37,082 nucleotides of DNA, taken from the NCBI GenBank assembly GCA_013824915.1, contig PNOQ01000051.1, forward strand, positions 1-37,082. The letters are read 5' to 3'. This DNA is from Nanoarchaeum sp. (lineage in GTDB: Archaea; Nanobdellota; Nanobdellia; SCGC-AAA011-G17; PNOQ01). The notes under the pieces are model-generated. The model saw nothing but the letters and a program-made list of their open reading frames with translations, was not told the DNA's origin and searched no databases. The position numbers and the translations under genes were made by a program. This document shows positions 8,931 through 37,082 of this stretch, in pieces (the stretch's first letter is position 1; each line of letters opens with the position of its first letter).

Positions 8931-9932
8931 CTAACTAGCCTTTTTAACCTTTATTATTATGTCTTCTACACTAATTTTGTTGATAGAATTGTCGTTTTTG
9001 CTTATTTTTCCACGAATATTATAAGAAGGTGTTGTTTCTTTCCAGATATATTGACTATTTTTATTTAAAGGAGCTAAAATATTTGGGTTTGTTGGGCCAA
9101 ATAAGCTTATAATATTATCATTTACGGCTGATGCTAAATGCATTGGTCCAGAATCATTGCATATTATTAGTTTACAGAATCTCATAATCTCTGCTGATTG
9201 TTGCAATGTTGTGTTTCCTATAGTTGATAAGACTGAGATTTCTTTTTGGATTTTATCATTTACTTCTTGATCTGTTGGCCCACCTATCAAAACTATTTGA
9301 TTTCCTACTGAAAGTTGTTTTATTAGTTCAATAAAATTTTCTACAGGCCATATTTTTTCAGATAAAGATTGTGCAGGGTTTACTCCGCCACCAGGGCAGA
9401 TTCCTATTGGTCTTCTTAAGTTATTCTTTCTAAAAAAATCTTTTGCATATTTTTTATCTTCTTCTGTTGTGAAGATATCTAATTTTATATCATTGTAATC
9501 AGCTGGTTTTATTGTATTTAACAAATCTAAATAATAAATTATTTCATGTTTATCTTGTGTATAATCTACTTTTTTTGTTAAGGACTTTCCTTCGTTTTCT
9601 CTATTAAAACCTATTCTTTCTTTTATTCCAAATAATTTTGCAGTTATGTTAAATGCTTTATGCTTATCTAATACGAAAATTAAATCGTATTTGTTTTTTC
9701 TTATTTTATTTATTAAAATTAAATATTTTATAATATTTTTATTTATGAATAATTTTTCGTCAAGTTTTATTACATTATTTATGTAATTATTATTTATTAA
9801 TACTTTTGAAGCTGAGTTTCCAACTAGATAGTCTATTTGTGCATCTGGGAAATTTTTCCTTGTTTGTCTTATCAATGGAGTTGTCATCAAAACATCTCCA
9901 ATTGCGCCAATCTTAAAAAATAATATTTTCAT
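8931..9932 (-). CDS. Glycosyltransferase family 9 (heptosyltransferase-like), second of pair
   Basis: GT-B enzyme of the heptosyltransferase family. The N-terminus MKILFFKIGAIGDVLMTTPL carries the family GxxGD motif at residues 8-14. The nucleotide-binding C-terminal domain has GICPGGGVNPAQS, LIGGPTDQE and the signature ICNDSGPMHLASA...ISLFGPTNP. The 333-aa length is typical. In bacteria these enzymes add heptose to the lipopolysaccharide core. Archaea have no LPS, so the acceptor here is presumably another lipid-linked or surface glycan. It follows the other GT9 gene with a 4-nt ATGA overlap. Confidence 0.87.
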   Translation of the reverse strand: MKILFFKIGAIGDVLMTTPLIRQTRKNFPDAQIDYLVGNSASKVLINNNYINNVIKLDEKLFINKNIIKYLILINKIRKNKYDLIFVLDKHKAFNITAKLFGIKERIGFNRENEGKSLTKKVDYTQDKHEIIYYLDLLNTIKPADYNDIKLDIFTTEEDKKYAKDFFRKNNLRRPIGICPGGGVNPAQSLSEKIWPVENFIELIKQLSVGNQIVLIGGPTDQEVNDKIQKEISVLSTIGNTTLQQSAEIMRFCKLIICNDSGPMHLASAVNDNIISLFGPTNPNILAPLNKNSQYIWKETTPSYNIRGKISKNDNSINKISVEDIIIKVKKAS

Positions 9933-34669: not shown

Positions 34670-35113
34670 ATGAAAAAGAGAGGTATAAGCCCATTAATTG
34701 CTACTGTCATTCTTGTTGGATTTACAATTGTGATGAGTATTTTTGTTTTAGTCGGTATGAGTAATATAGGTCAAAGAACTATTGCTGACCAAGATAAGAG
34801 AATAGCTAGTTCAGTTGTTTTAGATTTTGGAGTTAAATATTCTCCTGCGCAATATTGTACAGGATTAGCTGGGGAAGTAATATGTAATACAGGTAAAGAT
34901 TATTATTGTGTTTTAATTGAGAATAAAGAAAGTCAAAAAGTGAATTATAGAATTATTACTAAAGGGAGTTTAGGTAGTGAAGTTTGTTCGCCAGATAAAG
35001 TAGAATTAAATGGTTATGAATCTAAAGTGTTTGCTATAGGTTATGATCCTGTAAATGTTGGAGTTGCTCCTTTGACTGCAGATGTTGAAGCAATTTTATA
35101 TTTAGAAAACTAA
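34670..35113 (+). CDS. Archaeal type IV pilin-like protein with class III signal
   Basis: The N-terminus MKKRGISPLIATVILVGFTI is the archaeal prepilin signature. A short basic leader ending in G precedes the conserved ISPLIATVIL segment, cut by a prepilin peptidase and followed by a hydrophobic helix that packs the pilus core. The remaining ~115 residues form a small, beta-rich globular domain with cysteines at positions consistent with one or two disulfides (YCTGLAGEVICNTG, YYCVL, EVCSPD). Length is 147 aa, usual for minor pilins. A TATA box is centred about 25 nt before the ATG. It could be a pilin, a minor pilin or an archaellin-like subunit; I favour pilin. Confidence 0.8.
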   Translation: MKKRGISPLIATVILVGFTIVMSIFVLVGMSNIGQRTIADQDKRIASSVVLDFGVKYSPAQYCTGLAGEVICNTGKDYYCVLIENKESQKVNYRIITKGSLGSEVCSPDKVELNGYESKVFAIGYDPVNVGVAPLTADVEAILYLEN

Positions 35114-35943
35114 ATTTTTACTGAAATCTTTCCTTGTTTGAGAACTCTTACTTTTCCACCAGATTCGGAAACTACTACTGCTATTGAATTTGTTTCTTTT
35201 GTTAAAGCTGCACAGGCTCTGTGTTTTGTACCAAATCCATCTGGGAATTCTAATCCGGATGAATCAATATCGATGTAAGTTCCTGCACTTAATATTCTTC
35301 CTTCTGTGTCTATAACAAATACTCCATCTAATTGTGCGAAGTTTTTTACTGTTTCTTTTAAATCAGGATCAGTAATTCTTGGTTTTTCAGTTAAATTATG
35401 GAATGGATTGATAATCATCTGTTTTAGATGTCTGTTAATTTCTTTTGGATCACCAATTATGAATCCGGTACCTATTTTTCTTCCTTCTCTGCCTTCTTCT
35501 CCGATTTCTTTAGCTAGATTTATTACAGCTTCAACTATTTCTGAACTGATATATTCAGATAATTTTTGTTGACCTATCTTGAAGAAGATTTCATCAACAT
35601 CAAATATGAATAATAATCCTTCATAACCTGCGCCAATGTTTGGGTCTTGAACACAGACTATTTTTTCTCCTTTTTCTACATAACCTTTGTTTACTGCTTC
35701 AACTAAAACTGTTTTTATTGGAATTATTGAACCAAATTCTAGTTTTTTTGTTTTAGCTATATATTCTATCTTTTTGAATCGATTAGGACTAACTTGTTTG
35801 AATATTGAAACTTTGATATCTATAGAATCACTATCTTCATACTTTTCGTGAGGAATTTTTTCTACTGTAACGATGCTGCTTGCATTGATATCTTTTGCAA
35901 TTTTTGTTGCTGCAAAGCCTATTGTTTCTTCTATTTTATTCAT
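35110..35943 (-). CDS. dacZ: Diadenylate cyclase (DacZ-like, DAC domain)
   Basis: It probably makes the second messenger c-di-AMP from two ATP in the cytoplasm. The N-terminal ~180 residues form the PK-like domain seen in archaeal DacZ proteins (KIGTGFIIGD near 157-165). The DAC domain follows, with LDGVFVIDTEGRILSAGTYI at about 205-224 and GTKHRACAALTKETNSIAVV at 238-257. The usual motifs are DGA and RHR; here the first reads DGV and the second KHR. Neither change clearly destroys activity, but both are worth testing. Length from the ATG at 35943 is 277 aa. The track start at 35949 is a TTG. The 3' end overlaps the pilin gene by 4 nt in convergent orientation. Confidence 0.85.
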   Translation of the reverse strand: MNKIEETIGFAATKIAKDINASSIVTVEKIPHEKYEDSDSIDIKVSIFKQVSPNRFKKIEYIAKTKKLEFGSIIPIKTVLVEAVNKGYVEKGEKIVCVQDPNIGAGYEGLLFIFDVDEIFFKIGQQKLSEYISSEIVEAVINLAKEIGEEGREGRKIGTGFIIGDPKEINRHLKQMIINPFHNLTEKPRITDPDLKETVKNFAQLDGVFVIDTEGRILSAGTYIDIDSSGLEFPDGFGTKHRACAALTKETNSIAVVVSESGGKVRVLKQGKISVKI

Positions 35944-36026
35944 TTTCAATCGAATCTAATAGTTTCTCATTAAAAAACTTTTTGGTGTGTTTTTATGACT
36001 ATTAATCAGTAGTAAGCCATCGAAAA

Positions 36027-36075: not shown

Positions 36076-36840
36076 ATGAATACAAACAAAATTTTAGTTG
36101 GATTAAGTACAATCTCTGCTTTAGCTATGTTATCTTACGGTCCTTTTACCGAGGATAAAAAGAGAAATGTTGTTGAACCAGAGTCTAAGTTAGAGAGAAC
36201 TATATCTGAATTTATTTCTAATGAAACTATTGAATCTCAAGTAAAATCTTTTGAAGTTTTAGTTGAAAATCCATTGTATAATGTTAGAGAAGGAGAAAGT
36301 TTAGAAAGTGTAGCTAGTTATTATGGTGTTAGGACTGAAAGTATACGAGATATTAATCCTGGTGTTGATGATTTGTATGCTGGTCAACTTATAAGAGTTC
36401 CAAATTTACAACCAATCGAAGTTAGATTCCCTAAACTATTAAAATATAGAAAAGATATCGAATGTGCTGCTGAAATTTATGGATTAGAGCCTAGATTAAT
36501 TTACTCAGTTTTACAACATGAAAGTAATGGTAATCCTAATGCTGTGTCTCCAAAAGGTGCTCGTGGTTTAGGCCAAATTATGCCTGCAACTGCTAGAGAT
36601 TATGGTGTTAAAAATCCAATGGATTTATTTAATCCGAAAATAAATATTTATACTACTAGTGAAATTTTAGCATACTTAACTGAAAAGTTTGGAGATACAG
36701 AACATGTATTGGCTGCATATAATGGTGGCGAAGGAAGAGTTGAAAAAGTTCTAGCTCGTGCAACTCATACCGATTGGACAACTTTATTGCCTAGTGAAAC
36801 TAGAAATTATATTCCTGCAGTTTTAGCTTATTATAATTAG
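36076..36840 (+). CDS. Secreted LysM plus lytic transglycosylase (SLT) protein
   Basis: In bacteria this family cuts peptidoglycan between MurNAc and GlcNAc. Residues 3-21 (TNKILVGLSTISALAMLSY) look like a signal peptide or anchor. A LysM carbohydrate-binding domain lies at 67-108 (LYNVREGESLESVASYYGVR ... IRVPN). The SLT domain runs from ~125, with HESNGNPNAVSPKGARGLGQ around the catalytic E149 and AYNGGEGRVEKV around 214-225. Length is 254 aa. The ATG has GGTGAT 5 nt upstream and a CTTTATAAAG TATA box 40 nt back. Since archaea lack murein, the target may be bacterial cells or another polysaccharide. It may derive from horizontal transfer. Confidence 0.87.
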   Translation: MNTNKILVGLSTISALAMLSYGPFTEDKKRNVVEPESKLERTISEFISNETIESQVKSFEVLVENPLYNVREGESLESVASYYGVRTESIRDINPGVDDLYAGQLIRVPNLQPIEVRFPKLLKYRKDIECAAEIYGLEPRLIYSVLQHESNGNPNAVSPKGARGLGQIMPATARDYGVKNPMDLFNPKINIYTTSEILAYLTEKFGDTEHVLAAYNGGEGRVEKVLARATHTDWTTLLPSETRNYIPAVLAYYN

Positions 36841-36845
36841 TAATT

Positions 36846-36854
36846 TTTATATAC
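36846..36854 (+). promoter_or_regulatory. TATA box for the Rhs-like gene
   Basis: TTTATATAC-type element centred about 25 nt before the ATG at 36875; suggests its own leaderless promoter. Confidence 0.5.
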
Positions 36855-36874: not shown

Positions 36875-37082
36875 ATGAAAATTATGGTGATAATATTATT
36901 TTTATTAGTTTTACCTATTTGTTTTGCTAAGGAAGTTAATATTATTGAGACTTTTGAGAGTGAGAAAAATATTGGTGAAACAACTTACTACTATGCTGGT
37001 TCTAAGTTAATTGCAACTAAGAACAATGATAACATTAATTTTCAATATCAAGATAGATTAGGTTCGGATTTTGAATCGAATA
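36875..37082 (+). CDS. Rhs/YD-repeat-like secreted protein, 5' end only
   Basis: Only the first 69 codons are in the window. A signal peptide (MKIMVIILFLLVLPICFAKE) is followed by ETTYYYAGSKLIATKNNDNI and then NFQYQDRLGSDFE. The YYYAGxxLIA...Y...DxLGS pattern matches the repeat and core of Rhs/YD proteins, which in bacteria form shells around toxic C-terminal domains. Here only one repeat-like unit is seen. The ATG has a TATA box (TTTATATA) centred about 25 nt upstream, so transcription is leaderless. It follows the lytic transglycosylase gene by 35 nt in the same direction. The toxin-type reading is an inference because the C-terminus is off the window. Confidence 0.6.
   Translation, partial: MKIMVIILFLLVLPICFAKEVNIIETFESEKNIGETTYYYAGSKLIATKNNDNINFQYQDRLGSDFESN

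Follow-up and report, generated by a model that had tools for sequence, protein, structure and literature searches.

A short secreted Rhs gene at a contig end in a Nanoarchaeum genome: a probable member of a polymorphic effector family, and a possible split Rhs system

The gene that begins at the right-hand edge of the stretch of DNA considered here is, quite probably, one copy of a polymorphic family of short secreted Rhs effectors, referred to below as mini-Rhs, in an archaeon of DPANN type. A more far-reaching reading, to which we give slightly less than an even chance, is that these proteins belong to a split Rhs system, in which one secreted, coreless YD-repeat shell of roughly 1,950 residues would be closed and loaded in trans by cartridges made up of a core and an effector. 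The DPANN archaea, whose genomes are minute, live attached to other cells or at their expense, and how they attack or manipulate their neighbours is little understood; in the present genome, of some 0.8 Mb, several genes are given over to Rhs effectors with unrelated tails, together with shells of nearly 6 kb each.

The window, i.e. the whole stretch analysed, comprises all 37,082 nucleotides of contig C7 and ends with it at position 37,082; the genome itself (labelled G000) has 828,909 bases in 57 contigs, and was compared principally with the other members of its taxonomic family of nine genomes (cited below by G-numbers), of which G008 is its sister. Its small size, the TATA-like promoters and neighbouring genes of archaeal type suggest a DPANN archaeon; the assembly yielded no 16S gene. 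The features of the window that matter for what follows are these:

36875..37082, + strand: 5' part of the mini-Rhs gene, 69 residues visible, open at the contig end
36875..36928, + strand: signal-peptide-like N-terminus (residues 1-18, MKIMVIILFLLVLPICFA), from the sequence
36980..37081, + strand: start of the Rhs core, TTYYYAGSKLIATKNNDN to DRLGSD, from the alignment of paralogues and the core profile
36844..36853, + strand: TATA-like box TTTTTATATA, some 29 nt upstream of the start codon, suggesting a promoter of the gene's own
36076..36840, + strand: lytic transglycosylase with LysM and SLT domains, 254 residues (Pfam SLT E = 9.8e-28, LysM E = 1.2e-6)
35110..35949, - strand: gene of 279 residues, read as a diadenylate cyclase (DAC), the function being assigned by inspection only

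The open frame at 36875-37081 (+ strand) starts with MKIMVIILFLLVLPICFAKEV, which resembles a signal peptide, and continues through TTYYYAGSKLIATKNNDN to YQDRLGSD; just 69 residues are visible because contig C7 ends inside a repeated gene. Taken by themselves these residues match no family in Pfam or NCBIfam, so that the identification of the gene as Rhs has to come from its paralogues. At the DNA level the frame is 84-93% identical to the C5, C14 and C11 loci of the same genome, and it aligns with positions 1-68 of the 135 in the mini-Rhs family profile (E = 3e-42). Six Rhs-related genes, that of the window among them, occur in this genome, where the Rhs repeat-associated core model TIGR03696 scores above its curated cut-off at five places. 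The complete paralogues, of 383, 344 and 481 residues, match NCBIfam Rhs_assc_core with E-values from 7e-18 to 5e-20; two of the three begin with the same signal peptide, and all have in common an Rhs core of about 100 residues, beyond which they diverge totally. The general plan of a mini-Rhs protein is thus a signal peptide, the core of about 100 residues and a C-terminal domain (CTD) of 180-280 residues, 340-480 residues in all; members of the family give no match to RHS_repeat and contain no YD array, the signal peptide leading into what is the last core. A preliminary description of the window had seen in the 69 residues a signal peptide and an Rhs-type pattern, and had proposed a secreted Rhs-like protein that starts with the final core rather than with a long repeat array. 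All of this holds: the open frame is as described, complete paralogues with an Rhs_assc_core match and a hydrophobic N-terminus exist, and they too are without the array. Two longer core-bearing Rhs proteins are also present in the genome, both cut by contig ends, and incomplete long proteins of Rhs type occur at L186:10631-14878 (contig C22), L152 (C40) and C14:46-909, again all cut by contig ends.

Mini-Rhs genes were found in seven of the nine genomes of the family (0.5-0.8 Mb in size), with 4-10 copies in each; they are otherwise rare in the order (103 genomes), and in the phylum at large their distribution is patchy, the architecture being mostly the same short, secreted one. Searches of public named genomes and viral contigs gave only weak matches in Ktedonobacterales, and no match in a virus. 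All 31 N-terminally complete copies from the family are strongly hydrophobic at the N-terminus, as compared with 29% of neighbouring ORFs, and 25 of the 31 have the motif TTTAWA between 20 and 40 nt upstream of the start, in nearly every case at -23 to -31 (133 of 275 neighbouring ORFs have it), which suggests that mini-Rhs copies would usually possess a promoter of their own.

In Tc toxins and in the Rhs toxins of type VI secretion systems the Rhs core serves both as a C-terminal plug and as an aspartyl autoprotease. The motif PxxxxDxxG stands at the end of the core in all 44 cores of the family, and in the 32 that could be aligned both aspartates that correspond to the autoprotease dyad of Rhs and Tc proteins, as well as the last glycine, are invariant. 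The two aspartates are 20-21 residues apart in mini-Rhs; by the residue numbers given in PMC8765631 and PMC7861908, the distance is 22 in RhsA and 23 in TccC3. In a comparison of the core profile with the PDB, matches to TcdB2-TccC3, YenC2, RhsA and Tse5 extend as far as the cleavage points of these proteins (E = 2.5e-18 to 1e-6), TccC3 and YenC2 being the best matches among bacterial Rhs toxins. Mini-Rhs proteins therefore carry the residues characteristic of the Rhs/Tc aspartyl autoproteases (the Asp pair and PxxxxDPxG), and such an activity is predicted for them.

What follows the core is quite different in kind. Compared by phmmer, the 44 CTDs are almost all unrelated, clear relationships being confined to one type resembling FlgD_ig or secretion tails (three copies) and one further pair, while the cores are about 60% identical; the combination of a conserved N-terminal part with unrelated CTDs (44, with few similar pairs) is that by which polymorphic toxins are recognised. 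The tree of the cores clusters by genome, with 13 label changes as against 27.5 on shuffling (none of 200 shuffles gave a number as low), and a core resembles the paralogues of its own genome (82-86% identity) more than its syntenic orthologue (70%); judged by these relationships, the cores have been homogenised within genomes. A view of the exchange itself is given by a site, flanked by a regulator and a tRNA-synthetase-like gene, that four genomes have in common and where mini-Rhs copies in the same place bear different CTDs. The syntenic cores of the two sister species at this site are 70% identical, as against 80-92% for paralogues within one genome. DNA homology between this genome and its sister stops there where the CTD begins, at its first codon (L008:8493), and resumes at 9712, beyond a convergent gene of 174 residues, from which it follows that the unit swapped consisted of the CTD and the convergent gene together. 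In G006 and G008 both the CTDs (5e-15) and the convergent genes (2e-14), which encode membrane-anchored TPR proteins, are homologous, and in G000 and G005 both differ. At this one site, then, CTD and convergent gene behave, by analogy, like a toxin-immunity cassette; at most others an immunity-like convergent gene is absent or unclear, and many copies adjoin housekeeping genes. As a separate observation, the mini-Rhs copies at the four-genome site (L008:7752-8175; syntenic L063, L067 and L074) carry at the N-terminus an additional stalk built of repeated N-I-T-like units, with many possible N-glycosylation sites, which is kept while the tails differ.

The evidence bearing on a split system comes from a second kind of protein. 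Contig C24 of this genome encodes a secreted YD-repeat protein of 1,944 residues that ends without either Rhs core or effector, and complete shells of a similar kind are present in G008 (1,980 residues), G005 (1,927) and G007 (1,971), with a cut one of 740 residues in G006; profile searches of the shells found no Rhs core. Matches to SpvB and to the TcdB-middle domain (TcdB_midN) are weak, and occur in one shell. In a long fused Rhs protein of this genome (C11L), residues 1-371 align with the end of the shell from the same genome (1e-53), and residues 491-617 with the part of mini-Rhs that starts directly behind the signal peptide and extends to the end of the core (6e-31). Since both halves are joined in this one protein, the shell and mini-Rhs can be regarded as complementary halves of a single protein. 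In G007 and G008, moreover, a mini-Rhs gene lies downstream of the shell, at a distance of 6 bp and about 73 bp respectively. (In G005:C17, at L184:2-5797, a second secreted protein of more than 1,900 residues begins 8 bp after the coreless shell.)

If these are indeed halves of one machine, shell and core-effector cartridges would be secreted separately, and the core-effector protein would dock into the separate shell; the core would then close the shell and cut the tail free inside it at PxxxxDPxG, and the freed tail might be delivered to a neighbouring cell and act upon it. The near-identity of the cores would allow tails, with the convergent immunity-like gene where there is one, to be swapped by recombination. 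The split reading thus also includes up to ten dispersed cartridges whose cores recombine, with effector and immunity-like gene exchanged between sites and between genomes, and for this, too, we put the chances at a little under evens. It would mean that a piece of about 100 residues is able to load an Rhs cage in trans; no smaller "C" subunit has, to our knowledge, been described.

The best-surviving alternative, which we would sooner bet against than for but take seriously, is that mini-Rhs proteins, as secreted effectors of a polymorphic kind, function by themselves, the core acting only as a recombination handle and a self-cleaving linker, and the shells being separate surface adhesins; if the shell is dispensable, the core would still serve for recombination and self-cleavage in stand-alone effectors. 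Coreless shells of about 1,950 residues occur in five of the family's seven mini-Rhs genomes, and G001 (five mini-Rhs copies) and G002 (nine or ten) have no detectable one; because these two genomes carry many cartridges without it, a shell in trans may be dispensable, and in any case the comparison (five of seven against none of two) involves too few genomes to prove dependence. Most copies, besides, are monocistronic, with their own TATA-like box, and lie far from the shell. On the other hand, the shells stop where mini-Rhs begins and both parts are united in the fused protein, a mini-Rhs gene is the direct neighbour of the shell gene in G007 and G008, and a lone core of about 100 residues cannot form a cage.

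In its logic of one shell and many core-toxin cartridges, the putative split system would resemble TcB and TcC. The cocoon of the Tc (ABC) toxins, formed by TcB and TcC with "orphan" TcC paralogues, likewise has shell and core-toxin on separate polypeptides (PMC7861908, PMC8765631), and there variable CTDs of 200-400 residues follow the PxxxxDxxG autocleavage motif, one B subunit being able to accept any of several C subunits (PMC7861908, PMC8765631); mini-Rhs shares the variable CTD after this motif. It differs in its size (340-480 residues, of which only about 100 are Rhs, as against 851-1,050 for TcC), in having its own signal peptide, in being archaeal and in its convergent small genes. 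Bacterial Rhs toxins and orphan rhs-CT modules (of the RhsA, Tse5 and WapA types) share with it the conserved core, the hypervariable tail, the swap boundary at DPxG and the autoprotease aspartates, and, at one mini-Rhs site, an immunity-like neighbour; unlike the bacterial Rhs toxins, however, mini-Rhs has no YD-repeat cage in the same chain. Whereas rhs-CT modules are silent cassettes behind a main rhs gene, mini-Rhs genes are dispersed and free-standing, with a secretion signal and usually, it would appear, a promoter, and their small neighbour, where present, is convergent rather than downstream on the same strand. The SPEARE proteins of Nanohaloarchaeota (PMC6642349) also have an Rhs or BC-like cage in a DPANN archaeon, but there it forms part of one giant, membrane-anchored chain several thousand residues long, for which no small exchangeable core-effectors are described (PMC6642349). 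These proteins, with their region resembling BC toxins, were all that the literature searched for Rhs in DPANN archaea yielded; a 2019 survey of archaeal polymorphic toxins was not covered, and priority is uncertain.

As to whether the tails are toxins, the suggestion in the preliminary description of a toxin domain at the C-terminus stands in so far as the family is polymorphic with toxin-like tails, the toxin-likeness applying to a part of it only. Among relatives in the same class (other orders), the mini-Rhs architecture ends in Colicin_D (6e-11) or Ntox47 (1.5e-19), and one member from the family has the pre-toxin domain PT-TG. A few CTDs of the family give sub-threshold matches to a transglutaminase-like domain, DUF4846 and DUF1402; most match nothing in Pfam, NCBIfam, PHROGs or PADLOC, and single CTDs compared with the PDB and with plasmid sequences were nearly all without a match. 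Some look by eye like NlpC/P60, SleB, zincin or caspase domains, but this is unproven, and the recurrent CTD that resembles FlgD_ig or T9SS tails is not obviously toxin-like. A short protein without any toxin-like domain, the outcome named earlier as speaking against a toxin, is in respect of length not seen in any complete paralogue.

The three tails of the FlgD_ig or secretion-tail kind, others that look like beta-rich or barrel proteins, and the attached life of DPANN cells on their hosts would all suit a different role, namely that mini-Rhs proteins are antigenically variable surface or adhesion proteins rather than toxins, whose displayed tails serve for attachment to a host or to neighbours and are varied by recombination. 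We consider this unlikely, given that Colicin_D, Ntox47 and PT-TG domains occur within the same architecture, that the tail is exchanged along with a convergent small gene, and that the autoprotease dyad is invariant.

The transglycosylase next to the window gene, whose last base lies 34 nt before the mini-Rhs start, looks secreted; its SLT domain scores 96.5 bits, the gathering score being 21.3, and the orthologue in the sister genome is 53% identical. Since no match to a Mur ligase was found in this genome, the enzyme probably acts on peptidoglycan of foreign origin. This LysM-SLT neighbour is of the same kind as the archaeal peptidoglycan hydrolases (PMC12352652) and the murein transglycosylases of Woesearchaeota (PMC9723730); it is not itself an Rhs protein, and its link to mini-Rhs is one of position only. 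In the window the cluster consists of a gene of 147 residues, the DAC-like gene, the transglycosylase and mini-Rhs, and by synteny with G008, where the order is SLT, mini-Rhs and a PINc-type ATPase, it would extend to contig C24, with the PINc gene and the shell. Homologues of the DAC-like gene adjoin a shell or a mini-Rhs copy in two other genera, at G005:C17 and G007:C25, and the same order is seen in G008:C7. At a contig edge in G008, what appear to be the last codons of an SLT-like gene lie 36 nt before the mini-Rhs start. In G008:C7 (L128:64-1350) the SLT frame runs, where the contig ends, into sequence resembling the C-terminal part of an alanyl-tRNA synthetase; this contig is probably chimeric.

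The earlier idea that wall hydrolase and effector form a pair is a weak one: the neighbour order can be deduced in one sister genome (G008) only, while mini-Rhs has a TATA-like box of its own and most copies lie far from any transglycosylase. The two may be a functional pair. A general SLT/mini-Rhs operon was rejected as a rule, distributions and neighbourhoods differing across the family. In its strong form, that of a dedicated anti-bacterial pair in which the Rhs effector gets in through a wall opened by the transglycosylase, the idea seems to us improbable. The order deduced in G008, the inclusion of a shell in the cluster in both G000 and G008, an enzyme that in a genome with no Mur ligase match probably acts on the walls of others, and the precedent of archaeal peptidoglycan hydrolases that kill bacteria (PMC12352652) speak for it; against it are the putative separate promoter of mini-Rhs, the presence of an SLT homologue in just three of the nine genomes (mini-Rhs being in seven), and the situation in G005, where the mini-Rhs close to SLT is a different one and is separated from it by a kinase.

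It remains to account for the position of the window gene at a contig edge. Within the family, 16 of 44 mini-Rhs copies lie no more than 150 nt from a contig end, where 1.6 would be expected, so that it was probably the repeated core itself that broke the assemblies, which would explain why the window gene is at an edge. It is very improbable that the frame results from the decay of an Rhs gene or from faulty assembly. Although it stops at the contig end and in-frame stops are present in the G001 and G002 copies, the frame is intact, it has a signal peptide and a TATA box, the three paralogues to which it is 84-93% identical are themselves intact, and a contig end within the core is a general effect of the repeat. 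In a search of this genome by core for the missing half, every other core proved to belong to another copy. By synteny with G008 the far flank of the window gene should be contig C24, whose last 270 or so bases hold only an open-ended frame of 62 residues (L134:5812-6000), rich in cysteine and of higher G+C; no homologues of this frame were found, and it is not claimed as the tail of the window gene.

Taken as a whole, the family yields a list of about forty uncharacterised effector domains. One last observation concerns the surroundings of another mini-Rhs copy of this genome (contig C5), which at a distance of 5 bp, tail to tail, adjoins a gene for a secreted protein resembling a YkuD L,D-transpeptidase (L006:6492-7088, E = 1e-10).
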